From an uncultured Pseudomonadota bacterium (GTDB taxonomy: Bacteria; Pseudomonadota; Gammaproteobacteria; Burkholderiales; Usitatibacteraceae), in assembly GCA_946885905.1 (NCBI GenBank), contig CAMPHL010000043.1:1-10308 (forward strand): a stretch of DNA of 10,308 bases, in the 5' to 3' direction. Of the stretch, positions 53-10,308 are shown piece by piece (positions within the stretch are counted from its first letter, which is position 1; each line of letters begins with the position of its first letter). The translations under genes were made by a program, and so were the position numbers. Under the pieces are notes generated by a model. The model made no database searches and was not told the origin of the DNA. It saw nothing but the letters and a program-made list of their open reading frames with translations.

Positions 53-1450
53 GAGAAGAAAGTCGCCGTCGATTTCGGCGACCGCAAGGTCGACCTCGAG
101 GTGCCCGATTCGGCCGTCGTGGCCGAGTTCACGGACCCCGGGCTGCTCGACGATCCGGCGGCCGAAGTCGACAAGGTTCTGGCCAACCCGCTGGGCATGC
201 CCCCGCTCGCGGAGATGGCGAGGCCCGGAATGCGCGTGGCGATCGGCTTCGACGACATCACGCGCCCGGGCACGCCGGCCCGGCTGATCCTGCCGAAGGT
301 GGTCGAGGTCCTGAACAGGTCGGGCGTCCACGACCGCGACATCGTCTTCATCAGCGCCACCAGCAACCACCGCAAGGACACGCGCTCGGAGCTCGCCAAC
401 CACCTGGGGCCGGCGATCTTCAACCGCTTCCAGCCGCTGGGAAACATCCGCAACCACGATTGCGACGATCCCGCGGGCCTCGTCTTCCACGGCATCACCG
501 ACAGCGGCCGCTACGTCGAGCACAACCGCACGTTCCTCGAGGCCGACCTGCAGGTCTACCAGGGCAACGTGTCCGCCCAGGCATGGAAGGGATACACCGG
601 CACCGGGGTGGTGATCGGGCTCGCCTCGACCAGGAGCATCGCCTCGCACCACAGCTTGGCCACCGTGCCGGATCCGGAGAAGAAGAAGGAGCACCGGAAG
701 GCGGCGGGCACGAAGCTGCCCGGGATGAAGCCCGAGATGACCGCGGTGCTCGAGAAGGCTACCGGCAAGAAGACCTTCTACGTGAACGCCGTGAGCGCAA
801 TGGGCGGCAAGCCCATCGGCATTTTCGCGGGGCATGCGGGCGAGGCGACGCCGCCGGCCTGGGAGCTCGCGGGACGCTCGTTCACGCGCGAGGTCCCCCA
901 AGCCGACGTGCTCGTCGTGGGCCTGGGCGCGGCCTACTCGTATGGCTCGTCGGAGAACGCGCTCATCGCCGCCGTGGGGGCGCTCGTGCCCCCACGCTAC
1001 AGCCCGGAGCAGCCGGTGCTGCGCGAGGGCGGCGTGGTGATCGCGCTCTCGCCCACGAGCGGATGGATCGACCCCGACCGCTATCCCTCGTACCAGCGCC
1101 TCATCGACGTGTACGACAGGCACCACGACATCCGCGCGCTGGTCGACTACGAGGAGATCTTCCACGGCGACCCGGTGCTCATGCAGAAATACCGCCACGG
1201 CTTCGGCTACCCGGCGCTGCACGCCTTCTGGATCTTCTACGAGTTCGAGTACGCGTTGAAGCGCGCCGGCGCCGTGATCATGGCGGGCACGCGCAATCCG
1301 GGCGTGTTCCGCAGGCTCGGCTTGCAGACCGCGCCCGACTTCGACGAGGCATGGAAGGCTGCGCGCCGCTACGTGGGCGACAACCCGACGACCGTCGTGG
1401 CGCCGACTTTCTGGTCGCGGCCGCGCATCAAGTTCTCCGTGAAAGGGTAG
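53..1450 (+). CDS. LarA-family (DUF2088) nickel-pincer-dependent racemase/epimerase-like protein, 5' end not resolved
   Basis: This is a homologue of lactate racemase LarA, whose family uses the nickel-pincer nucleotide to racemise or epimerise 2-hydroxyacids in the cytoplasm. A GTG at 101 is available, but codons 53-100 read EKKVAVDFGDRKVDLE, the usual first strand of the family, so the true start lies further upstream in the damaged edge; the frame is open to the window start. Numbered from the GTG, 449 residues include an ITRP motif (R55) and SNHRKDT (H90), matching LarA R75 and H108. LASTRSIASHHS puts H184 at the nickel ligand H200. By alignment to Lactiplantibacillus plantarum LarA recalled from memory, H174 is replaced by Q160, and the GGxKxxxPG segment with the cofactor-tethering K184 is shortened to GTGVVIG (167-173). 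The substrate-binding YQxxK region is also replaced. Family membership is firm; the reaction is unknown and probably not lactate racemisation. larC starts 10 bp downstream. Confidence 0.85.
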   Translation, partial: EKKVAVDFGDRKVDLEVPDSAVVAEFTDPGLLDDPAAEVDKVLANPLGMPPLAEMARPGMRVAIGFDDITRPGTPARLILPKVVEVLNRSGVHDRDIVFISATSNHRKDTRSELANHLGPAIFNRFQPLGNIRNHDCDDPAGLVFHGITDSGRYVEHNRTFLEADLQVYQGNVSAQAWKGYTGTGVVIGLASTRSIASHHSLATVPDPEKKKEHRKAAGTKLPGMKPEMTAVLEKATGKKTFYVNAVSAMGGKPIGIFAGHAGEATPPAWELAGRSFTREVPQADVLVVGLGAAYSYGSSENALIAAVGALVPPRYSPEQPVLREGGVVIALSPTSGWIDPDRYPSYQRLIDVYDRHHDIRALVDYEEIFHGDPVLMQKYRHGFGYPALHAFWIFYEFEYALKRAGAVIMAGTRNPGVFRRLGLQTAPDFDEAWKAARRYVGDNPTTVVAPTFWSRPRIKFSVKG

Positions 1451-1460
1451 GCTTGGGCTC

Positions 1461-2780
1461 ATGACCACCCTGGCGCGTATCCACCTCGATCCCATCGGCG
1501 GGATCGCCGGCGACATGTTCGTCGCGGCGATGTGCGACGCCTTCCCCGAGCGCGTGGCGGGGCTGATGGCCGAGCTCCAAAAGATCACCCCCTACCCTGG
1601 AAGGCAGGGCGAGGGTCCCGGCATCGACGTCCTGCGCCACTCGGACGGCGTCCTCCACGGCCGCCGCTTCCACGTCGAGGAGCCGCCCGCCGAAATCCAC
1701 GCGCGGACGCATCACCACGGCGACGGCCACGCGCACGACCACCTGCACGTGCCGCACCGCGAGATCCGCGCGAACCTGCTCACGGCGGGATTGGATCCGG
1801 CCACCCTCAAGCACGCGCTCGCCCTCTTCGAGCTGCTGGCGCAAGCCGAGGGAGACGTGCACGGGATCGGGCCCGACGACGTCGCCTTCCACGAAGTCGG
1901 CGCCTGGGACTCGATCGCGGATTTCGTGGCCGCCGCATATCTCATCGCCGCGGCGGGCCCGCGCTCGTGGAGCGTGGGCCCGCTGCCGCTCGGCGGCGGA
2001 CGCGTCAAATCCGCCCACGGCGTCCTGGCCGTGCCGGCGCCGGCCACGACCTGGCTGCTCGAAGGCCTCGACGTGATCGACGACGGCGTGCCCGGCGAGC
2101 GCGTGACCCCGACGGGCGCGACCATCGTGCGATATCTCTGCGGAAATGCGCGTCACTCCGGTTCGGCAAGCTCCCCCGGCTCGACTCGTCATCCCGGCGA
2201 AGGCCGCGGCCCAATCACCATCGTGGCCAACGGCCACGGTTTCGGCACCATGAAGCTGCCGGGCATCCCGAACGTGCTGCGGGTGCTGGCCTTCGCCGAT
2301 TCACCCGCCCTTCCCCCGCCGCTCGACGAGGAAATCGCCACGCTCCAGTTCGAGATCGACGACCAGTCGGCCGAGGATCTCGCCGTGGCCCTCGACCGAT
2401 TGCGCGCAACGCCGGGCGTCCTCGACACGAGCCAGGCCCCGGTGGTCGGCAAGAAGGGACGGCTCGCCACCCACGTCCAGGTGCTTGCGAGGCTGGAGGC
2501 AGCCGACGCGGTCGCCGACCAATGCCTCGCGCAGACGACCACGCTCGGCGTTCGCATCGCGCGCGTCCTGCGCCGCGTGGCACCCAGGGCGTCGGTGGAA
2601 ACGGCCGATGGCGTGCGCGTGAAGCTTGCCTCGCGTCCCTCGGGCGAGATGACGGCGAAGGCCGAGATGGACGACATCGCCCGGGTGCCCGGCGGCAGGG
2701 TGCAGCGGCAGCAAGCCCGCAAGCGTGCGCAAGACCAAGCCCTCGGATCGGCAAGCCATGACGACCGCAAGCGCGATTGA
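1461..2780 (+). CDS. larC: LarC, nickel insertion protein for the nickel-pincer cofactor
   Basis: LarC inserts Ni(II) into pyridinium-3,5-bisthiocarboxylic acid mononucleotide, the last step of nickel-pincer synthesis, in a CTP-dependent reaction (family knowledge). The 439-residue protein has the N-terminal signature HLDPIGGIAGDMF (8-20), a histidine-rich loop with nine His between residues 80 and 99 (a plausible metal store), HEVGAWDSIAD (144-154), the PLPLGGGRVKSAHG region (174-187), TPTG (216-219) and a GxGFGT...LPGIPNVLRVL segment (258-276). In L. plantarum the gene is split into larC1/larC2 joined by programmed frameshifting; here it is one unbroken frame. Residues about 229-252 look longer than usual and contain a TRHPGEGRGP peptide encoded by a dispersed-repeat-like sequence. 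The ATG at 1461 lies 10 bp after the larA-like stop. The 3' end overlaps larE by 23 bp. Confidence 0.93.
   Translation: MTTLARIHLDPIGGIAGDMFVAAMCDAFPERVAGLMAELQKITPYPGRQGEGPGIDVLRHSDGVLHGRRFHVEEPPAEIHARTHHHGDGHAHDHLHVPHREIRANLLTAGLDPATLKHALALFELLAQAEGDVHGIGPDDVAFHEVGAWDSIADFVAAAYLIAAAGPRSWSVGPLPLGGGRVKSAHGVLAVPAPATTWLLEGLDVIDDGVPGERVTPTGATIVRYLCGNARHSGSASSPGSTRHPGEGRGPITIVANGHGFGTMKLPGIPNVLRVLAFADSPALPPPLDEEIATLQFEIDDQSAEDLAVALDRLRATPGVLDTSQAPVVGKKGRLATHVQVLARLEAADAVADQCLAQTTTLGVRIARVLRRVAPRASVETADGVRVKLASRPSGEMTAKAEMDDIARVPGGRVQRQQARKRAQDQALGSASHDDRKRD
2187..2206 (+). repeat. Dispersed-repeat-like insertion inside larC
   Basis: The 20 bases CGTCATCCCGGCGAAGGCCG match the left part of a small palindromic repeat common in proteobacterial genomes, whose translation often gives RHPGEGRxP or VIPAKAGI peptides (recalled knowledge). 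The stem CGGC/GCCG around a GAAG loop is visible. The expected right flank is decayed: an extra C interrupts the GGG that would pair with CCC. It keeps the larC frame and lies between two conserved LarC blocks, so it probably adds a surface loop. Confidence 0.5.
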
Positions 2781-3582
2781 GTCGCTCGAGGCCGTGCTGC
2801 GCGGCATGGGCCGCGTCGCGGTCGCCGTGAGCGGGGGAATCGACAGCCTCACGCTCGCCACGATCGCGGCTCGCACGCTCGGCAAGAGCGCGCAAATGTT
2901 CCACTCGATGACGGCGTCGGTCCCGCGGGAGGCGACGGCGCGCACGCGGGCGCTCGCCGACGAGCTGGGTTGGGGCCTCACGGTCATCGACGCGAAGGAA
3001 TTTTCCCGCAGCGAGTACGTGTCCAACCCCGTGAATCGCTGCTTCTACTGCAAGGAATCGTTGTACGCGGAAATCGCGCGCCACACCGACGCCCAGGTCG
3101 TCTCGGGCGCGAACACCGACGACCTTGGCGAATACCGGCCCGGCCTCGAGGCCGCCAGCGCGGCCGGCGCGCGCCATCCGTTCGTGGAAGCCGGGATCGA
3201 CAAGGCCACCATTCGCGCGATCGCCCGCGAGATCGGCCTTGGCGACCTTGCCTGGATTCCCGCCTCGCCCTGCCTTTCCAGCCGCGTCGAAACGGGAATC
3301 CGGGTCGAGGCGCCCATGCTTCGCCGCATCGAGTCGGCCGAGGCGGCGGTGCGGCCGTTCGTGCCCGCGAACGCCGCGGTGCGCTGCCGGGTGCGCGCCG
3401 GCGGCATCGTGATCGAGATCGACGAAGAGGTGCTGGAATCGCTCGACGAGGGCCGCAGGAGGCTCATTACCGCGCAAGTGGCGAAGACGTTCGGCAGGAA
3501 CCCGACGCTTGCCCCGTACCGTGTGGGCAGCGCGTTCCTAGTGAACTTTCCACCCGCCCCGTCCCAAGGGAGGGGGGAGTGA
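2758..3582 (+). CDS. larE: LarE, PP-loop sulfur transferase for the nickel-pincer cofactor, three-cysteine type
   Basis: LarE adenylates the carboxylates of the LarB product and replaces them with thiocarboxylates, an ATP-dependent step run twice per cofactor. With the ATG at 2758 the protein is 274 residues, close to the 276 of L. plantarum LarE; an upstream GTG at 2725 would add only 11 unconserved residues. The PP-loop motif SGGIDS is at 25-30, and EYRPGLEAASAAGARHPF (125-142) is typical of the family. Cys172 in ASPCLSSR matches the sacrificial Cys176 of L. plantarum. The NRCFYCKE motif adds C95 and C98, absent from the L. plantarum enzyme and present in LarE forms reported to bind a [4Fe-4S] cluster, so this one may recycle its sulfur (inference). 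The last residues, FPPAPSQGRGE, are encoded by a GC-rich hairpin. It overlaps larC by 23 bp and larB by 4 bp. Confidence 0.93.
   Translation: MTTASAIESLEAVLRGMGRVAVAVSGGIDSLTLATIAARTLGKSAQMFHSMTASVPREATARTRALADELGWGLTVIDAKEFSRSEYVSNPVNRCFYCKESLYAEIARHTDAQVVSGANTDDLGEYRPGLEAASAAGARHPFVEAGIDKATIRAIAREIGLGDLAWIPASPCLSSRVETGIRVEAPMLRRIESAEAAVRPFVPANAAVRCRVRAGGIVIEIDEEVLESLDEGRRRLITAQVAKTFGRNPTLAPYRVGSAFLVNFPPAPSQGRGE
3557..3577 (+). promoter_or_regulatory. GC-rich hairpin supplying the larB ribosome-binding region
   Basis: CCCC (3557-3560) and CCC (3563-3565) can pair with GGG (3568-3570) and GGGG (3573-3576), with a short AA apex and one G-G mismatch. The purine-rich right arm, AAGGGAGGGGGGA, lies directly before the GTG start of larB and is the only Shine-Dalgarno-like sequence there, so folding could reduce larB initiation unless larE is being translated through it. 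A similar element precedes the acyl-CoA ligase at 9343-9360. Pairing is read by eye; function is inferred. Confidence 0.45.
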
Positions 3583-4235
3583 TCGAGCACGGCATCCAGC
3601 TCGACCACCTGCGCGAGGCACGCCTCGGTTTCGACGAAGCCGTGTACAGCGCCGGCAAGACGGTCGCGCAGCTCGATGCGCTCATCGGCAACGCCCTCGA
3701 GATGCGCGCGCGGCGCCTCTTCACGCGCCTGGCGCAGGAAAAATTCGCCGCCCTCGCCCGCGAACACCGCGACGCGCTCGACTACGACCCGGTTTCGCGC
3801 ACCGCCTTCGCGGGCGACGAGCGGCGGGCCTGCGGCGAAGCGCGCGTGGCCGTCATCACCGGCGGAAGCTCGGACGTGGGCGCGAGCCGCGAAGCGGCGC
3901 GCACGCTCGAGTACCACGGCCAGTCGAGCGTCCACATGCCGGACATCGGGGTGGCCGGGCTCTGGCGGCTGCTCGCGCGCATGGAGGAGTTGAAACGCAT
4001 GCGCGTGGTGATCGTCGCAGCCGGGATGGAGGGCGCGCTGCCGAGCGTGGTCGCGGGCCTCGTTCCCGGCGCCGTGATCGCCCTGCCGACCTCGGTGGGC
4101 TACGGCGTTTCCGAGGGCGGGCATGCGGCCCTCACCTCGGCGCTCGCCAGCTGCGCGCCCGGGCTCGTCACCGTCAACATCGACAACGGCTACGGCGCCG
4201 CCTGCGCGGCGCTGCGGATGCTGCGCGCCGCCTGA
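3579..4235 (+). CDS. larB: LarB, nickel-pincer cofactor carboxylase/hydrolase (PurE-like fold)
   Basis: LarB carboxylates the pyridinium ring of nicotinic acid adenine dinucleotide at C5 and cleaves the phosphoanhydride, giving pyridinium-3,5-biscarboxylic acid mononucleotide. From the GTG at 3579, which overlaps the larE stop (GTGA), it is 218 residues. The PurE-like core shows ITGGSSDVGASREA (93-106), AGMEGALPSVVAGL (148-161), PTSVGYGVSEGG (170-181) and SCAPGLVTVNIDNGYGAA (191-208). C192 is 26 residues from the C-terminus, matching the catalytic Cys221 of the 246-residue L. plantarum protein. The N-terminus is about 28 residues shorter than that enzyme and begins near the LDHLREARLGFDEAVYSAGKT block, lacking the usual leading helices. 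The frame is open upstream, but extension would overlap larE heavily. Its neighbours argue against a purine-synthesis role. Confidence 0.9.
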   Translation: MIEHGIQLDHLREARLGFDEAVYSAGKTVAQLDALIGNALEMRARRLFTRLAQEKFAALAREHRDALDYDPVSRTAFAGDERRACGEARVAVITGGSSDVGASREAARTLEYHGQSSVHMPDIGVAGLWRLLARMEELKRMRVVIVAAGMEGALPSVVAGLVPGAVIALPTSVGYGVSEGGHAALTSALASCAPGLVTVNIDNGYGAACAALRMLRAA

Positions 4236-4242
4236 CAATCGA

Positions 4243-4247
4243 AGAGG
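4243..4247 (+). promoter_or_regulatory. Ribosome-binding site of the family III CoA-transferase
   Basis: AGAGG sits 8 nt before the ATG at 4256, within the only gap of note (20 bp) in the eight-gene block. No promoter or terminator is visible in that gap, so translation is probably re-initiated on the larB message. Confidence 0.55.
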
Positions 4248-4255
4248 ATTCTCCA

Positions 4256-5401
4256 ATGCTTCCCCTCACCGGAATCCGCGTGATCGAATTCTGCAACGTG
4301 GCCGCGGGGCCCTTTTGCGCGATGCTGCTCGCCGACATGGGCGCCGACGTGGTCAAGGTCGAGAACCCGCAGGGCGGCGACTCGATGCGGCAATGGCCTC
4401 CGCTCACCGCCGGCTACAGCGAGAACTTCGCCTCGCTCAACCGCAACAAGCGCTCGGTCACCCTCGACCTCAAGAACCCGGCCGACCGCGAGCGCGCGCG
4501 CAACCTGATCCTGGGCGCCGACGTGGTGCTCGAGAACAACCGCCCCGGCGTGATGGATCGCCTCGGACTGGGCTACCGGTCGTTCGCCGCTGAAAAGCCG
4601 TCGCTCGTGTACTGCTCCATCTCGGCCTTCGGCCAGGAAGGCCCGCGCGCCGGGGAAGGCGGCTTCGACCTCACCATGCAGGCGATGGCGGGGGTCATGA
4701 GCGTCACGGGCGAACCCGACGGCGCGCCGGTGAAATGCGGCGTGCCTTTGTCCGACTTCTGCGCCGGCCTCTATGGCGCGTATGCCATCGCGGCGGTGCT
4801 GCGCCGGGTGCAGCAAGGCGGTGCCGGCGAGCACATCGACGTTTCGATGCTCGGGACGTCGCTCGCGGTGGCGGCGCTGCAGACGAGCGAGTACTTCGGC
4901 AGCGGGCGCGACCCGGCGAAGCTCGGCTCCGCGCACCCGCGCAACGCCCCCTACCAGGCGTTCAAGGCGAAGGACGGCTACTTCGCGATGGCGGCTGGCA
5001 ACGACAGCCTCTGGAAAGCGGCATGCGACGTGGTCGGCATGCCCGGGCTCGTGCAGGATCCGCGCTTCGGTTCGACCACGCTGCGCGCGAAGCACCAGAA
5101 GGAGTTGAAGGCCATCCTCGAGGAGCAGTTCGGGAAGCACACCGCCGCGGAGATGCTCGGGAGGTTCCGCGCGGCCGGCGTGCCGTGCGCGCCGATCAAC
5201 ACGTATTCGCAGGCCCTGGAAGACGAGCAGGTGCGCCACATGCAGTGGGTGCAGGAAATCGCCTTGCCCACCGGCGCCGGGACGCGCACGTTCGCGTCCC
5301 CCCTGCGCTTCACCGGCAAGGGCTTCCCGATCCGGCGCGGCCCGCCCGCGCTGGGCGAGCACAACGACGAGGTCTTCCAGGACGCCAAGGCGGCCGAATG
5401 A
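4256..5401 (+). CDS. Family III (CaiB/BaiF) CoA-transferase
   Basis: Family III CoA-transferases move CoA between acyl-CoA and free carboxylic acids through an aspartyl-CoA thioester intermediate, usually as interlocked dimers in the cytoplasm. The 381 residues include LTGIRVIEFCNVAAGPF (4-20), LADMGADVVKVENPQGGD (25-42), NRNKRSVTLDLKNP (62-75), SAFGQEGP (123-130), GGFDLTMQAMAG (135-146) and VPLSDFCAGLYG (163-174), where D167 matches the catalytic Asp169 of formyl-CoA transferase. The C-terminal GPPALGEHNDEVF is also typical. Length is normal for a single-domain member. It follows larB by 20 bp and overlaps the next gene by ATGA, so it is very likely co-expressed with both. Formyl-, succinyl- or mesaconyl-CoA specificity cannot be assigned from sequence. 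Confidence 0.9.
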   Translation: MLPLTGIRVIEFCNVAAGPFCAMLLADMGADVVKVENPQGGDSMRQWPPLTAGYSENFASLNRNKRSVTLDLKNPADRERARNLILGADVVLENNRPGVMDRLGLGYRSFAAEKPSLVYCSISAFGQEGPRAGEGGFDLTMQAMAGVMSVTGEPDGAPVKCGVPLSDFCAGLYGAYAIAAVLRRVQQGGAGEHIDVSMLGTSLAVAALQTSEYFGSGRDPAKLGSAHPRNAPYQAFKAKDGYFAMAAGNDSLWKAACDVVGMPGLVQDPRFGSTTLRAKHQKELKAILEEQFGKHTAAEMLGRFRAAGVPCAPINTYSQALEDEQVRHMQWVQEIALPTGAGTRTFASPLRFTGKGFPIRRGPPALGEHNDEVFQDAKAAE

Positions 5402-6195
5402 GCGCCGGCGCCGCGGTGGCAACGAACGCGCCGGAGATCGTCGCGCAGCGACGCGGGACGACGCTCGAGGTGACGCTGGACCGGCCCGGCAAGATGAACG
5501 CGTTCTCGGCTTCACTCGTCGATGCGCTGTTGGCGGCGGTCAGCGCCGCGTACGGCGACGGCACGCGACTGCTCGTGCTGCGCGGCAACGGCAGGAATTT
5601 CAGCGCCGGCTTCGACATGGCGGGCGTCGACCGGCAATCCGAAGGCGACCTGCTGCTGCGCTTCGTCCGCATCGAGCAGCTCCTGCAGGCCGTCCACCAC
5701 GCGCCGTTCGAGACGCTCGTGCTCGCCCACGGCAGGAATTTCGGCGCGGGCGTCGATCTCGTCGGCGCCTGCTCCCGCCGCATCGCCACGCCCGATGCCA
5801 CCTTCCGCATGCCGGGCCTCAAGTTCGGCCTCGCCCTCGGCACCCACCGCTTCGCGCTCCAGGTCGGCGGCGATGTCGCACGCGACATCCTCGCGGAGTC
5901 GAAGACCTTCGGCGCCGAGGAAGGGCGGCGAATCGGATTCCTGACCGGGATTGCCGAGAAGGGTGAATGGCCGAAGGTCATCGAACGCATGGTGGCCGCA
6001 GCCGAGGCCCTTCCGCCCGACTCGCACGCCCGGCTCGTCGCCGCGACCCGCACCGATACGCGCGATGCAGACCTCGCCGAGCTCGTGCGCTCGGCCGCCG
6101 CGCCGGGGATCCGGCAGCGCATCGCCGCGTACCTGGCCGAATCGGCCGGGAACGCCGCCACCCCGGGCGCCGCGGGCGCCGTTTCGAAGGAATAG
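5398..6195 (+). CDS. Enoyl-CoA hydratase/isomerase (crotonase) family protein with altered catalytic glutamates
   Basis: Crotonase-fold proteins stabilise acyl-CoA enolates in an oxyanion hole and carry out hydration, isomerisation, hydrolysis or C-C cleavage. The 265 residues show the first oxyanion loop, GRNFSAGFD (65-73), the second loop, GRNFGAGVDL (112-121), and the following CSRRIATPDATF segment. The two acid/base glutamates of rat hydratase (E144 in GGCELA, E164 in PExxLG) align with D120 and with G140 in MPGLKFG, so simple hydratase activity is doubtful. Both oxyanion loops carry the same GRNF tetrapeptide encoded by identical 14-base DNA, which is unusual. The C-terminal tail, from about residue 245, is Ala/Gly-rich and likely disordered. 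The ATG overlaps the previous stop (ATGA); the next gene starts 2 bp after this stop. Substrate unknown. Confidence 0.85.
   Translation: MSAGAAVATNAPEIVAQRRGTTLEVTLDRPGKMNAFSASLVDALLAAVSAAYGDGTRLLVLRGNGRNFSAGFDMAGVDRQSEGDLLLRFVRIEQLLQAVHHAPFETLVLAHGRNFGAGVDLVGACSRRIATPDATFRMPGLKFGLALGTHRFALQVGGDVARDILAESKTFGAEEGRRIGFLTGIAEKGEWPKVIERMVAAAEALPPDSHARLVAATRTDTRDADLAELVRSAAAPGIRQRIAAYLAESAGNAATPGAAGAVSKE
6187..6191 (+). promoter_or_regulatory. Ribosome-binding site of the CoA-transferase-like subunit A gene
   Basis: AAGGA lies 6 nt before the ATG at 6198 and within the last codons of the crotonase gene. It supports the 6198 start, which also matches the expected short N-terminus of this family. 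Confidence 0.55.
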
Positions 6196-6197
6196 AC

Positions 6198-7013
6198 ATG
6201 CCCCCCAAGATCCTTTCCCTCGAAGAGATGGTCGGCCGCGTGCCCGATGGCGCCTCGCTCGCGCTGGGCGGCAGCTTCCTGCATCGGGGCCCCTTCGCGT
6301 TCGTGCGCGAGCTGATCCGGCAGGGCAAGCGCGAGCTCGAGATCATGAAGCAGTCGCCCGGCTACGACATCGACATCCTCTGCCGCGCGGGCTGCGTGAA
6401 GAAGGCGCGCGCCGGAATCGTCGCGATGGAAGGCAACTTCGGGCTCGCGCCCTGGTATCGGCGCGCGGTGGAGCAGAAGCAGATCGTGCTGGAGGAGCAC
6501 GCCTGCGCCACGCTCACTGCCGGAATGCGCGCCGCCGCGTTCGGGGTGCCCTTCCAGCCCGTGGGCGGCGTGCACGGCTCGGACCTGGCGGCGCTCAACA
6601 AGTGGGTCTCGATCAAGGATCCCTATGGCTCGGGCGAGGAGGTCTGGGTGATCCCCGCGATCCGGCCCGACATCGCGGTGATCCACGCGAACGAGGTGAA
6701 CGAGCTGGGCGACACGCGCATCTACGGAACCTTCAACTGGGACCGGATCATGACGCGCGCCGCGAAGCAGGTGTTCGTGGTCGCCGAGTCGTTGGAGAGC
6801 ATCGAGAGCTTCCAGGAGCAGCCGGAGCTCACGCTCGTGCCCGGATTCATGGTGCAGGCCGCCTGCGTGGTGCCGCACGGCGCATGGCCGGGCTCGTGCT
6901 GGCCGCTCTACGAAGTGGACTACCCCGCGGTGGAGGCGTACATGGACACCGCCGGCTCGCTCGATGCGCACATGGCGGCCGCTCCCGAGGTCAACGAGGG
7001 CGCGTATGCCTAG
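6198..7013 (+). CDS. Family I CoA-transferase-like protein, subunit A (glutaconate CoA-transferase/IpdA type)
   Basis: This is the alpha-type subunit of a heteromeric family I CoA-transferase or an IpdAB-like acyl-CoA hydrolase. The 271 residues begin with LSLEEMVGRVPDGASLALGG (7-25-like opening), followed by RGPFAFVRELIRQGKRELEIM (30-50), LCRAGCVKKA (61-70), the EEHACATLTAGMRAAAFGVPFQPV region (99-122) and the diagnostic VIPAIRPDIAVIHANEVNELGDTRIYG stretch. E99/E100 fall where GctA-like proteins have a conserved EE pair and IpdA has a functional Glu (recalled alignment). It is separated from the crotonase by 2 bp and overlaps subunit B by 8 bp, which supports co-translation and a complex. 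Length fits IpdA/GctA better than the succinyl-CoA:3-oxoacid enzymes. The order crotonase-A-B matches echA20-ipdA-ipdB of mycobacterial steroid degradation, but no other steroid gene is in view. Confidence 0.87.
   Translation: MPPKILSLEEMVGRVPDGASLALGGSFLHRGPFAFVRELIRQGKRELEIMKQSPGYDIDILCRAGCVKKARAGIVAMEGNFGLAPWYRRAVEQKQIVLEEHACATLTAGMRAAAFGVPFQPVGGVHGSDLAALNKWVSIKDPYGSGEEVWVIPAIRPDIAVIHANEVNELGDTRIYGTFNWDRIMTRAAKQVFVVAESLESIESFQEQPELTLVPGFMVQAACVVPHGAWPGSCWPLYEVDYPAVEAYMDTAGSLDAHMAAAPEVNEGAYA
6996..7000 (+). promoter_or_regulatory. Ribosome-binding site of the CoA-transferase-like subunit B gene
   Basis: GAGGG lies 5 nt before the ATG at 7006. It favours that start over the ATG at 6964, whose extra 14 residues are Arg-rich and out-of-frame with conserved subunit A sequence. 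Confidence 0.5.
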
Positions 7014-7722
7014 CTGGTCGCCCTTCTCCTACATCGTCACCAACCTCGCGCGCTTCATCCGGCCGGACGAAGTGACCTTCAGCGGGGTGAACTCGACCCC
7101 GCCCATGCTTGCCTGCCTGCTCGCCAAGCGCGCCTACGACTTCGAGTTCACCTACATCAACGTGGCGGGTGGCGTGCAGCCGACGCCCTCGAAGATCCCG
7201 ATCTCGAGCTCCGACCCGGTGCTGTCGGAAGGCTCGACGGCGATCTTCGCCAACGAGGACTTCTACGACCTGTGCACGCGCGGGGGTATGGACCTGTGCT
7301 TCCTCGGAGCCGCGCAGGTGGACGGCATGGGACGCACGAACGTTTCCGCCATCGGCGACTGGCATAACCCGAAGGTCCGCCTGCCCGGCGGCGGCGGCGG
7401 CGCGGTGATGCTGCCCACGGCCCGGCGCGCGGTCACCTGGCGCACGGAGCACTCGAAGCGGACGATGGTGGAGAAGCTCGATTTCGTGACCGCCGCGGGC
7501 GGCATGCACGGGGTAGTGACCCCGATCGCCGTGTTCGTGAAGAAGGGCGGCAGGCTCACGCTCCAGTCGTGGCACCCGGAGTCTTCGCTCGAGGAGGTGC
7601 GCTCGCGCACCGGCTTCGCCTTCGAAGCCGACGGCGCGGCCGCAACCGCGCCCCCCACGGCCCGCGAGATCGAGGCGCTGCGCTCGCTCGACCCGCAGGG
7701 CCGGTTCGAGCGCGACGCCTAG
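7006..7722 (+). CDS. Family I CoA-transferase-like protein, subunit B (glutaconate CoA-transferase/IpdB type)
   Basis: This is the beta-type partner of the preceding subunit; in family I enzymes the B subunit normally carries the glutamate that forms the acyl-CoA intermediate. The 238 residues include FSGVNSTPPMLACLLAKRA (24-42 region), FLGAAQVDGMGRTNVSAIGDW (the family's GAxQVDxxGNxN signature), HSKRTMVEKLDFVTAAGG and a C-terminal HPESSLEEVRSRTGF...PTAREIEALRSLDP block typical of the IpdB/GctB group. Where GctB-like transferases have an E-S/N-G catalytic motif before the proline segment, this protein reads NVAGGVQP, so the classical glutamate seems absent, as in IpdB. A hydrolase or C-C cleaving role is therefore as likely as CoA transfer. 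The gene ends at a TAG whose AG is already part of the 104-bp palindrome. Confidence 0.86.
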   Translation: MPSWSPFSYIVTNLARFIRPDEVTFSGVNSTPPMLACLLAKRAYDFEFTYINVAGGVQPTPSKIPISSSDPVLSEGSTAIFANEDFYDLCTRGGMDLCFLGAAQVDGMGRTNVSAIGDWHNPKVRLPGGGGGAVMLPTARRAVTWRTEHSKRTMVEKLDFVTAAGGMHGVVTPIAVFVKKGGRLTLQSWHPESSLEEVRSRTGFAFEADGAAATAPPTAREIEALRSLDPQGRFERDA

Positions 7723-7824
7723 AACCGGGGCCAGGTACGGGACAGGTACTTGTGCCAGGTCTCTCCTAGGCGCGCCTAGGAGAGACCTGGCACAAGTACC
7801 TGTCCCGTACCTGGCCCCGGTTCT
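7721..7824. repeat. Perfect 104-bp palindrome between convergent genes
   Basis: Every base from 7721 to 7772 pairs with its partner from 7824 back to 7773: 52 of 52 positions, with no spacer. The centre is CCTAGGCGCGCCTAGG, and pairing stops at 7720/7825. The element includes the last two bases of the TAG of the + strand gene and ends 4 bp before the - strand stop at 7829, so it fills almost the whole gap. RNA from either strand would fold into the same long hairpin, which could end transcription from both sides or serve as an RNase III target. Neither side has a T-run, so it is not a textbook intrinsic terminator. Alternatives are two inverted copies of a mobile repeat, or a local assembly fold-back. 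Confidence 0.95.
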
Positions 7825-7828
7825 GGCT

Positions 7829-9328
7829 TTACAGCAAGTCGACGAGCTTCAGCCGCTGCACCTTGCCCGAAGGGCCGCGAGGCAGCTCGGCGACGAAGTG
7901 GATCGCCTTGGGGGCCTTGAACTTGCCGAGGTGGGTGGCGCAGAACTCGCGCAGCTCGTCTGCCGTGCAGTCATGTCCTTCGCGCCGGATCACGCAGGCC
8001 ACCACTTCCTGCCCATAGTGCTTGTCGGGCATGCCCACCGCGGCGGCGTCGAGGACCGCGGGATGCTTGAGCAGCACCTCGTCGATCTCGCGCGGGGCGA
8101 TGTTCTCCCCGCCCTTGATGATCAGCTCCTTGATGCGGCCGGTGATGTAGAAGAAGCCGTCGGAATCGCGCACGCCGACGTCGCCGCTGCGCAACCAGCC
8201 GCCGGGGAAGAACGCGGCCTCGGTAGCTGCAGGATTCTTGTAGTAGCCCGGCGTCACCTGCGGCCCGCGGATCACGACCTCGCCCGGCTCACCGTCGGGC
8301 TTGTCCACGCCCTTCTCGTCCACGATCCTCGCCTCGCAGCCCGAGGGCCGTCCCACCGCGCCCACCTTGCGCAACTCCGGCTCGTAGGCGTTCGAAAACG
8401 CAGGCGCCACCGTTTCCGTGAGCCCCATCGTCTCGATCACGCCGATGCCGAACTTGCGCTGGAACGCGAGCAGGTGCTCCGGCGGCAACGGCGCCGAGGC
8501 GCTGCGGCAAAACCGGATGCGCGCGATCGACTCGCGCGCAGGCGCCGGGCCCTCGAGGAGGAAGCTCACGATCGTCGGGACGACGTTGATCCAGGTGCAC
8601 TCGTGCCGGATCGCCATGTCCCAGAACTTCTTCGCCGAGAACTTCGGCGGCATCACGAGCGAACCTCCGTGCGCGAGCGGAGCCAGCATCGTCACCGCGA
8701 AGGCATTGATGTGGTAGAGCGGCAGGATCGCAGCCACGCGATCCGAAGGACCGAGCCGGTGCTCGGCGCTGATCGTCCGCGCGTTGGCCGCGAGGTTGGC
8801 CTGCGTGAGGATCACGCCCTTCGGCTTGCCGGTCGTGCCCGAGGTGTACATGAGCAGTGCCAGCGAGTCCGGCTGCGGACCGACTGCCGCCGCCCCCTCG
8901 TCGCCCTCGTCCGGCAGCGCCGCCGCATCGGGATCGACCTCGATCACGGCGATGGGCCGCTCCATTCCGGCCACCAGCTCGCGCACCTTCGAAGCCCATT
9001 CGGGCGAGACGAAGACGAGCGCGCAATCCGAGTGATCGAGAACGTAGCGCATCTGCTCGGGGCCGGACATCAGATTGACGGGATTCACGCAGTAGCCGCC
9101 GTACATCGCGCCCAGGAGGATGCGCAGCGTGGCGAGGCCGTTGGGCATGACCAGCGACACGTGCGTGCCGGGCTGGAGCCCGTGACGCGCGAGATACGCA
9201 GCGATGCGGCGGCAGGAAAGCTGCAGCTCGGCGAAGCTCAGCGTGCGGCCGGTTTCCGCGGCGATGAAGTACGTGGCGTCGGGCCGGGCCGCGGCTTGCG
9301 CTTCGACCAGGGAGCGGATGGTGTTCAA
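7829..9328 (-). CDS. AMP-forming acyl-CoA ligase, sulfoacetate-CoA ligase (SauT)-like candidate
   Basis: Class I adenylate-forming enzymes activate a carboxylic acid with ATP to an acyl-AMP and then to the CoA thioester. The 499 residues contain the nucleotide loop YTSGTTGKPKG (161-171), LPLYHINAF (202-210), ETMGLTET (299-306), GWLRSGDVG (377-385, ribose-binding D383), GRIKELIIKGGENIAP (397-412) and GPSGKVQR (485-492) with catalytic K489, so the enzyme looks complete and active. The start is TTG at 9328, with GGGGGAGG just upstream; the first ATG is only at residue 61, inside a conserved block. It lies 37 bp after an acylating aldehyde dehydrogenase on the same strand. That pair and order resemble sauS-sauT, in which sulfoacetyl-CoA is made and reduced. 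Other short acids are possible, and the name is held back for that reason. Confidence 0.9.
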   Translation of the reverse strand: MNTIRSLVEAQAAARPDATYFIAAETGRTLSFAELQLSCRRIAAYLARHGLQPGTHVSLVMPNGLATLRILLGAMYGGYCVNPVNLMSGPEQMRYVLDHSDCALVFVSPEWASKVRELVAGMERPIAVIEVDPDAAALPDEGDEGAAAVGPQPDSLALLMYTSGTTGKPKGVILTQANLAANARTISAEHRLGPSDRVAAILPLYHINAFAVTMLAPLAHGGSLVMPPKFSAKKFWDMAIRHECTWINVVPTIVSFLLEGPAPARESIARIRFCRSASAPLPPEHLLAFQRKFGIGVIETMGLTETVAPAFSNAYEPELRKVGAVGRPSGCEARIVDEKGVDKPDGEPGEVVIRGPQVTPGYYKNPAATEAAFFPGGWLRSGDVGVRDSDGFFYITGRIKELIIKGGENIAPREIDEVLLKHPAVLDAAAVGMPDKHYGQEVVACVIRREGHDCTADELREFCATHLGKFKAPKAIHFVAELPRGPSGKVQRLKLVDLL

Positions 9329-9365: not shown

Positions 9366-10308
9366 TCATTTGCCCCAACGCTGGAAGTACTCCTTCAGCA
9401 GCTCCTCCACGCTCGGCACTTTCTCGGCGATCTCGGTCACGACGCGCGTCACGTTCATGTACTGGCGCACGTTCAGGTTGTCGGAGAAGTTGTTGTCGCC
9501 CCAGGTGCCGCAGCCCATCGAAAGCGAAACCGGCAGCGAATTGGAGAAGCTGCCGCCGTTGGCGACCACGTGCACCTGGTTCACGATCACTCGCGCCACG
9601 GGCAGGTGCAGGCCGAGCTCCAGCGCGCGCTCGGGGCGCTTCGAGTGCAGCGACACCGAGTGCCCCGCGCCCTGGAACTCGTAGATCCGGGCGACCATAT
9701 CCATGGCCGCCTCGAAGTCGGGAACGCGGTAGACCGTGAGGACCGGCGAGAGCTTTTCGCCCGAGAAGCGGTGCGCGGGCCCGGTGCCGGTCTCGGAAAC
9801 GAGCAATGCGCGCGCCCTGGCCGCCGCGGGCTCCGAGAGCCCGGCGCGCTGCGCGATCGCCGCGACCGATTGGCCGATGACCGCCGGCGAGAGCTTGCCT
9901 TCCGGCCACATCGTGGACTCGAGCCGCTCGCGATCCTCGCCCTTCACCTCGACGCAGCCTTCCTGCGCGAGCGCCGCGATCATCCGGTCCGCGATCGCCT
10001 CGACCAGCACGAGGCTGTTCTCGGACGAGCAGCTGGTGGCGTTGTCGAAGGTCTTGGAGAGCACGACCTTCCTCGCCGCGTCCTCGACGTCGGCGGTCTC
10101 GTCGATGATCGAGGCCACGTTGCCCGCGCCCACGCCGAAGGCGGGCGTACCCGAGGCATACGCCGCGCGGACGTTGGCCTGCGAACCGGTTGCCACCACC
10201 AGGTCGCACTGCCGCATGAGCTCGCCCGTCGTTTCCTTGGTCACGGGCGGCGGCAGCATCTGCACCAGGTCGCGGGGAGCGCCGATCCGGTCGAATTCGG
10301 CATGCACG
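9366..10308 (-). CDS. CoA-acylating aldehyde dehydrogenase, partial (sulfoacetaldehyde/acetaldehyde dehydrogenase type)
   Basis: These enzymes interconvert an acyl-CoA and the free aldehyde using NAD(P)H. About 313 C-terminal residues are present; roughly 150 N-terminal residues lie beyond the window. Visible features, numbered from the window edge, are VHAEFDRIGAPRDLVQML, typical of mid-domain sequence and hence not a true start, FGVGAGNVASIIDETAD (57-73), the catalytic-cysteine segment SKTFDNATSCSSENSLV with Cys93, and SGEKLSPVL. The C-terminal GCGTWGDNNFSDNLNVRQYMN is the hallmark of the EutE/AdhE/SauS group. FDNATSCSSEN favours the SauS-like branch over ethanolamine EutE (FDNxxPCxxEK), from recalled sequences. 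No microcompartment-targeting tail is seen. It is probably the first gene of a - strand unit with the ligase 37 bp downstream. Confidence 0.88.
   Translation of the reverse strand, partial: VHAEFDRIGAPRDLVQMLPPPVTKETTGELMRQCDLVVATGSQANVRAAYASGTPAFGVGAGNVASIIDETADVEDAARKVVLSKTFDNATSCSSENSLVLVEAIADRMIAALAQEGCVEVKGEDRERLESTMWPEGKLSPAVIGQSVAAIAQRAGLSEPAAARARALLVSETGTGPAHRFSGEKLSPVLTVYRVPDFEAAMDMVARIYEFQGAGHSVSLHSKRPERALELGLHLPVARVIVNQVHVVANGGSFSNSLPVSLSMGCGTWGDNNFSDNLNVRQYMNVTRVVTEIAEKVPSVEELLKEYFQRWGK

Follow-up and report, generated by a model that had tools for sequence, protein, structure and literature searches.

What would a set of nickel-pincer nucleotide (NPN) genes do when it runs straight into a block of genes for acyl-CoA chemistry? 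Such a run occupies positions 53-7722 of the window, by which we mean the whole stretch of 10,308 nucleotides analyzed here, from an uncultured bacterium of the Usitatibacteraceae. A first-pass annotation had read it as a dedicated catabolic link, in which a LarA-like enzyme fixes the stereochemistry of, or otherwise prepares, an acid that is then CoA-activated and dehydrated or cleaved. The features of the window are as follows.

53..1450, plus strand: LarA homologue, in a frame open from 2 to 1450, with no start codon inside the window
1461..2780, plus strand: larC, nickel insertion protein, after a 10-bp gap behind larA, with LarC1 and LarC2 in one frame
2758..3582, plus strand: larE, sulfur transferase of the CXXC-C type, overlapping larC
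3579..4235, plus strand: larB, with a GTG start overlapping the larE stop
4236..4255, plus strand: 20-bp gap between larB and caiB, containing AGAGGA, which resembles a ribosome site
4256..5401, plus strand: family III (CaiB) CoA-transferase (PF02515)
5398..6195, plus strand: atypical crotonase (PF00378), overlapping caiB
6198..7013, plus strand: subunit A of GctA/AibA fold, after a 2-bp gap (PF01144, PDB matches)
7006..7722, plus strand: subunit B of GctB/AibB fold, Val replacing the catalytic Glu, overlapping the A subunit (PDB matches)
7721..7824, no strand: perfect 104-bp palindrome without a loop, at the convergent junction that ends the eight-gene run
7829..9328, minus strand: AMP-forming acyl-CoA ligase (PF00501, 301 bits)
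9366..10307, minus strand: SauS-like CoA-acylating aldehyde dehydrogenase (NF047625), cut by the window end

The open reading frames, the bases between them and the profile matches bear out the run of eight genes on one strand with gaps of at most 20 bp. Its left end is less complete than had been stated: the gene order and gaps stand, but the larA start codon is missing, GAG being read at 53-55, and the nearest LarA homologues begin MKK(V). Bases 1-52 are C-rich and of low complexity, resembling a poor contig end. The window LarA protein is complete apart from its start Met. Consensus scans gave no promoter-like match (0.4 expected) and six terminator-like matches (4.4 expected), the latter on the minus strand only; at 4236-4255, where a promoter or terminator could have separated the two halves, these scans matched neither. 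The 104-bp palindrome had no match in the plasmid collection.

The three cofactor genes are all present. LarC1 (TIGR00299) scores 148 bits against a cut-off of 90 and LarC2 (NF052512) 97 bits against 50, with short in-frame inserts in larC relative to four aligned relatives; LarE (TIGR00268) scores 231 bits against 150, the RCxxCK and PCLSSR motifs being present in all five aligned LarE sequences; and LarB (NF033503) scores 248 bits against 175. The earlier claim of a full gene set holds. Together LarB, LarE (of the [4Fe-4S] type by motif) and LarC would produce the NPN, synthesis of the cofactor by the block itself being a function predicted from these genes.

Conservation of the pairing across genera had been set as a test beforehand, and the pairing passed it. 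In Pararhizobium (L001) and Filomicrobium (L002), both alphaproteobacteria, orthologues of the two halves lie within 21 kb of each other's company in a rearranged order, and these loci also have a TRAP-TAXI transporter in common; there the halves are separate by arrangement, not one gene run. Counting the window, the CoA half is found within 21 kb in three of five loci of the LarA clade, and an acyl-CoA ligase adjoins larACEB in all four relative loci. Pararhizobium haloflavum (now Neopararhizobium) carries both halves, and Variovorax sp. WS11 carries the lar half; a close A/B pair was found neither in Variovorax G002 (best A 30%, best B 33%) nor in the G1292 genome (best B 39%, partial). A Caballeronia plasmid carries the CoA half and no larA on the plasmid itself. 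The B-subunit relatives listed (best 120 of 1631) all share 83% identity or more with the window protein, and only 8 full-length LarA relatives reach that level among the 120 listed (best 120 of 204, scored from a capped set of candidates). An exact 8-residue pattern scan for relatives reaches close relatives only. Genome draws, which overlap and differ in their E-limits, recovered the LarA clade in the seed only (1/399, 1/385, 1/103, 1/101, 1/399 and 1/30); one draw gave 3/397, in which the seed was joined by G1292, a further member of the clade, and by G1097, whose LarA is distant. No LarA relative turned up in the plasmid collection at E 1e-20, and none in the viral contigs. Longest contigs of 35,683 and 42,534 occur in both the LarA and the B-subunit match lists, which suggests two more linked contigs; a third such match, at 4,725, could be chance, and all three were left out of the counts. 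The lar-CoA link is conserved but optional: it is not private to this genome, and the halves also occur apart.

This distribution bears directly on the possibility that two independent catabolic modules adjoin because acid-degradation genes gather on islands, with no shared pathway. Either half is found without the other, the halves lie apart in Pararhizobium and Filomicrobium, and the regulators differ, with LysR beside ligase-larA and IclR before caiB in G001. However, the LarA clade is very rare in the draws and yet has the CoA half nearby in three of its five loci, the two halves form one gene run in the window, and the LysR regulators on the larA side share 46-50% identity with the LysR found near the CoA half in Caballeronia. 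We regard coincidental neighborhood as improbable.

The residues of the LarA clade bear on what the enzyme itself may do. The window protein contains the Lar_N domain (Pfam; 145 bits, cut-off 23.3) and the LarA fold, and its best score among the Lar models, 186.8 bits to NF052592 (LarAH14/15/16), is far under the curated score of 740. In an alignment of the best 120 of 204 matches, minus three proteins shorter than 440 residues and with the window included (n = 118), the nickel-ligand His (H200 of LarA) is kept in every member, and the base His (H108) in 117, the sole gap coming from a row that lacks its N-terminal part. The NPN-site Arg is kept as well. The second catalytic His is absent in 115 of the 118, the window included; the H174 column holds Gln in 70 (among them the window), Thr in 16, Ala in 16, Gly in 10, His in 3, Ser in 2, Met in 1 and Asn in none. 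The NPN-tethering Lys (K184), termed 'universally conserved' in PMC11851776, is absent in 118/118, no Lys standing between YTG and GLAS; the corresponding motif here is YTGTG.

An ordinary NPN racemase would invert a free 2-hydroxyacid, the right enantiomer then entering CoA activation and dehydration. Where activity has been reported for a LarA homologue, it is that of a 2-hydroxyacid racemase or epimerase (PMC7583248, PMC11770544), and the clade keeps one base His, the nickel ligand and larBCE, with His in the H174 column of three members. The published racemase mechanism, however, requires two catalytic His, and the loss of the second together with that of the tether weakens this reading; in the single-His LarASp, lactate racemization was not detected (PMC12611868). 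We consider an ordinary racemase unlikely here. With the tether missing throughout, we infer NPN use from the neighboring genes and the remaining ligands. Given their loss of catalytic and NPN residues, Desguin et al. (2020) set groups 12, 13 and 16 aside as unlikely to be NPN enzymes, and suggested other NPN chemistry for homologues lacking one histidine (PMC7583248). That the LarA-like protein has likewise left NPN chemistry, with larBCE serving another enzyme, would account for the missing lysine and has that precedent, but is very unlikely, given that larCEB follows larA in five of five loci, that the nickel-coordinating His, catalytic His and NPN-site Arg are retained, and that non-covalent NPN is documented for one LarA (PMC11796402).

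Downstream, the first enzyme is a family III CoA-transferase by CoA_transf_3 (PF02515; 431 bits, cut-off 23.3, residues 4-370 of 381); its best NCBIfam match, succinate-glutarate CoA-transferase, scores 338 bits, under the cut-off of 750. The Asp of VPL-x-DF, which we take to be the catalytic Asp of the family, is conserved in three of three aligned rows. The crotonase (ECH_1, PF00378; 73 bits, cut-off 27; nearest PDB entry 3isa, 2.4e-71) has MPG in all five aligned rows, at what is presumably the position of PE in hydratases, with Gly replacing the second hydratase Glu; Asp and Gly would thereby occupy the two catalytic Glu sites of enoyl-CoA hydratase (5/5 rows). With Gly at this presumed second site, the dehydration of the CoA-activated acid suggested earlier appears doubtful.

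The last two genes had been called a two-subunit CoA-transferase-like protein. Their fold is indeed that of GctAB (CoA_trans, PF01144; 73 bits for the A subunit and 57 for the B subunit, cut-off 23), with PDB matches to 5mzw (3.6e-33) and 1poi (1.7e-29) for A and to 5n03 (1.8e-30) and 1poi (5.1e-18) for B. The catalytic Glu is another matter: at the GctAB Glu54 site, placed by alignment through the AibB Cys56 variants (PMC7756340), Val stands in the window and in 120/120 relatives listed (best 120 of 1631), and the L009 B subunit has Ile. AibB Cys56 and Glu72 correspond to Val and Ser in the window, Glu72 being placed by counting from Cys56. With Val in the place of the CoA-transferase Glu, lyase or hydrolase activity is probable for the pair, and CoA transfer is unlikely. 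A steroid-type reading after IpdAB was rejected: the B subunit is nearer AibB and GctB (1.8e-30, 5.1e-18) than the 6con and 6co6 chains (9.5e-6, 4.4e-5), and the A subunit is likewise nearer the AibA/GctA-type entries.

Taken together, the locus may be a patchy catabolic island in which an untethered variant nickel-pincer isomerase prepares an acid for CoA-dependent breakdown, a reading to which we would give an even chance. The island would be inherited patchily among Proteobacteria. The NPN would be loaded into a distinct LarA clade, probably without a lysine tether, and hydride transfer by the LarA homologue would convert an acid, for which hydroxy- and dicarboxylic acids are the likeliest candidates, either inverting it in one direction or relocating the hydride inside the molecule. 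The product could become a CoA thioester through the neighboring acyl-CoA ligase or, in the window, through the family III CoA-transferase; in the window and two other lineages, the atypical crotonase and the Glu-less GctAB-fold pair might then cleave or decarboxylate the CoA ester. The nearest models and PDB matches are glutarate, mesaconate, glutaconate and 3-methylglutaconate enzymes, which hints at a C4-C6 diacid as substrate. More specifically, the untethered enzyme, with its single base, might catalyze not racemization but an intramolecular hydride shift, on an acid that is already bound to CoA or will be, and so contribute a dedicated step to acyl-CoA degradation; we consider this version rather doubtful.

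Several observations count against the island reading: the CoA half is commoner than the LarA clade and also sits on the Caballeronia plasmid without larA; the tether Lys is absent in 118/118; Variovorax and G1292 lack a close A/B pair; the halves are separate in L001 and L002; His stands in the H174 column in 3/118; and the window keeps neither Cys56 nor Glu72 of AibB.

In the literature surveyed, NPN enzymes of known reaction are 2-hydroxyacid racemases and epimerases, which as a rule carry a conserved tether lysine and a pair of base histidines. A clade that drops the second His and the tether and is still joined to NPN genes makes the need for the tether testable, and likewise whether the cofactor does other chemistry; an intramolecular hydride shift, if true, would be a reaction type without report for the NPN cofactor in that literature. 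The CoA neighbors provide a pathway frame for a substrate hunt, and the recurring pairing points to an uncharacterized nickel-dependent step in a breakdown pathway.

Among known systems, the minus-strand genes recall the sauS and CoA ligase of sulfoacetate-type routes. In Variovorax (L018), a second sauS is followed by a ligase that shares 64.6% identity with the window ligase. The SauS-like fragment (313 residues) scores 477 bits over profile positions 152-464 of NF047625 (cut-off 600), and it and the window ligase together match this Variovorax pair; the Variovorax lar locus (L003) has a full-length SauS relative at 737 bits, above the cut-off. SauS also occurs elsewhere in the G001 and G1292 genomes and, at E 1e-100, in 35/172 genomes of the order, seed included. 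With the gene this common, SauS-lar co-occurrence is by itself weak, the tie to the lar pathway is a candidate only, and we keep a sulfonate substrate as a lead suggested by these matches.

The nearest solved sequences and folds are LarABw and LarASp, from Blautia wexlerae and Streptococcus plurextorum (PDB 9q3j, 9q2u/9q3k; PMC12611868). They and the window clade alike lack the second catalytic His, but LarABw and LarASp have an invariant Asn at the H174 site and the tether Lys, whereas the window clade mostly has Gln, Thr, Ala or Gly and a YTGTG without Lys; their neighbors are glycolysis or sugar genes, those of the window LarA CoA genes. The G1097 LarA (L013), of the LarABw/LarASp type, keeps YSGGYK. 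Judged by eye, its neighbors resemble a sugar-acid dehydratase and an aldolase. The LarA lactate racemase and the LarAH racemase/epimerase groups (PMC7583248, PMC11770544) have Lar_N, the nickel-ligand His and larBCE neighbors in common with the window; unlike the window clade, they normally possess the tether Lys and both base His.

The first-pass annotation knew of no dedicated link between nickel-pincer enzymes and CoA-thioester chemistry. PMC7702098 and PMC8914356 describe lct clusters of Anaerobutyricum and Anaerostipes that pair a LarA-type racemase with an acyl-CoA enzyme, as here; in those clusters the enzyme is a dehydrogenase of acyl-CoA, accompanied by ETF and lactate dehydrogenase, and serves neither acid activation nor C-C cleavage. 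In open-licence PMC literature, the literature covered, these clusters were the only published LarA-CoA pathway found. The A/B pair is closest in design to the 3-methylglutaconyl-CoA decarboxylase AibA/AibB and to IpdAB with EchA20 (PMC7756340, PMC5380842), which are also GctAB-fold pairs without the transferase Glu. The site holds Val in the window, Cys in AibB and Gly in IpdB; AibB Glu72 is not kept in the window, and IpdB is distant (9.5e-6 at best). Like the window pair, IpdAB works beside an unusual crotonase.

The lar and acyl-CoA genes of the window form a single run of eight co-directional genes, whose ORFs overlap at several stop-start junctions and are otherwise no more than 20 bp apart; their content was assigned with domain models.

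53-7722, plus strand, in order: LarA homologue, larC, larE, larB, family III CoA-transferase (caiB), crotonase-like protein, two CoA_trans-domain subunits (A and B)

In a profile search, the window scored above the cut-offs of the LarC1, LarC2, LarE and LarB models. LarE (2758-3582) aligns with four relatives that share its CXXC-C motif, which is described for the [4Fe-4S] type of LarE in a section of PMC9283937. Short in-frame inserts in larC (about 1602-1622 and about 2146-2210), absent in four relatives, look repeat-derived by eye. Positions 1-55 are a low-complexity, C-rich contig end of poor quality, in which larA lacks its start codon: its nearest relatives begin with Met, whereas the window reads GAG. 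Consensus scans of the window gave no promoter-like matches and no terminator-like matches on the plus strand; the minus strand had six terminator-like matches versus 4.4 expected.

A first-pass annotation had tied the lar genes to CoA chemistry, and their recurrence together supports this tie. Scanning the genome_contigs collection with LarA patterns, a method limited to close relatives, brought up three loci. Two of these are alphaproteobacterial, from Pararhizobium haloflavum (L001) and from a Filomicrobium MAG (L002). In both, lar genes and orthologues of the CoA half fall within one 21-kb stretch, so that the two halves occur together beyond the source genome, albeit rearranged, with gene order and strand unlike those of the window. 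Identities to the window are 59% (crotonase), 70% (A) and 77% (B) in L001, whose stretch ends at this point and covers no caiB, and 68% (caiB), 53%, 69% and 78% in L002. TAXI-type TRAP transporter genes, 73-75% identical from one locus to the other, lie alongside both. The third locus (L003), from Variovorax sp. WS11, consists of ligase-larACEB accompanied by genes for HupE_UreJ and SauS; that genome lacks a close A/B pair, with best matches at 30 and 33% identity. Genome G1292 carries a 55% identical larA within larACEB, next to a TRAP permease and a gene of the acetoacetate-CoA-ligase type. It likewise lacks a close B subunit, the best match being partial and 39% identical. Across the window and these four relatives, the larA-C-E-B order is kept in all five loci and the CoA half is found in three, the window included; an acyl-CoA ligase adjoins larACEB in all four relatives.

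Upstream of the Filomicrobium CoA half (L014, 950-6093) lie a marginal NicO gene and a molybdopterin oxidoreductase with an NADH-type partner, a pair whose domains resemble those of a formate dehydrogenase. A further locus (L013, 3580-10757) encodes a LarASp-type LarA that keeps the tether Lys; its larCEB genes are separated from larA by a sulfate-transporter-like gene, and by eye its lar genes adjoin dihydroxyacid-dehydratase-like and aldolase-like genes.

The CoA half also occurs without larA. On plasmid pNK82 of Caballeronia sp. NK8, caiB, crotonase, A and B are consecutive and 69, 51, 67 and 80% identical to those of the window. The ligase after B is 32% identical to the window ligase and 59% to the ligase that adjoins B in L001. 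The plasmid collection, which includes pNK82 but not the NK8 chromosome, gave no larA. A neighboring LysR gene is 46-50% identical to those divergent from ligase-larA in L001-L003, and an IclR gene shares 52% identity with its counterpart ahead of caiB in Filomicrobium; this likeness suggests a possible common inducer. The window B subunit is 90% identical to a Usitatibacter MAG counterpart among the matches listed, which makes a Usitatibacter-like betaproteobacterium the probable source of the window. The best 120 of the 1631 relatives of this B subunit are all at least 83% identical, versus eight full-length LarA relatives at that level among the best 120 of 204 matches. By these counts, the CoA half is commoner than this LarA.

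Two minus-strand genes, for a ligase and a SauS-like protein, run towards the end of the eight-gene block. They match a sauS-ligase pair elsewhere in Variovorax (SauS 61.5%, ligase 64.6% identity), and the Variovorax lar locus has a further SauS that shares 89% identity with the one in this separate pair. SauS is common, occurring in 35 of 172 genomes, seed included, so that a role for it in the window would be tentative. In two larA-carrying genomes, SauS genes lie away from the lar locus, beside succinyl-CoA-synthetase-like ligases (L016, 6512-10123; L017, 6320-9750). The convergent junction of the B subunit gene (catB) and the ligase holds a perfect 104-bp palindrome (7721-7824; arms 52+52, no loop), with no match in the plasmid collection, which may be a real element or an assembly fold-back.

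For the full-length family III CoA-transferase, the nearest models (succinate-glutarate, mesaconate and oxalate CoA-transferase) each scored below cut-off. The crotonase, with 3isa as closest structure in a PDB comparison, has MPG in all five aligned rows at what we take to be the position of PE in hydratases. For the A/B pair, the nearest PDB matches are AibAB and GctAB. At the site of the Gct Glu and of Cys56 in AibB, the B subunit has Val, as do the best 120 of its 1631 relatives. A Cys56-to-Val change in AibAB did not eliminate decarboxylation, according to PMC7756340, and IpdAB, with Gly at this site, is a hydrolase for which PMC5380842 saw no CoA transfer. Because of this Val and these two precedents, our reading is that the pair cleaves C-C or thioester bonds and is not a CoA-transferase. 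A 42% identical pair in Acetoanaerobium noterae (L009, 6133-7711) has Ile at the Glu site, and by eye its surroundings include acylating aldehyde dehydrogenase-like and ABC import-like genes.

Gene content, order, conservation, residue losses and fold are direct observations; the route that we propose goes further. The nickel-pincer nucleotide would be made and used, held in LarA without the tether, and LarA would act on a hydroxy acid or a diacid through hydride chemistry with a single base. A ligase or the CaiB-type transferase could then activate the product, which the crotonase and A/B pair would cleave. Of the CoA-linked racemase originally envisaged, the CoA link is supported; the weak part is racemisation itself, given the residue losses in LarA. 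Literature searches among open-licence papers found no published LarA cluster with the present CoA gene set. The lct clusters (PMC7702098 and PMC8914356), whose gene set differs, do provide a precedent for an acyl-CoA enzyme encoded next to a racemase of the LarA type.
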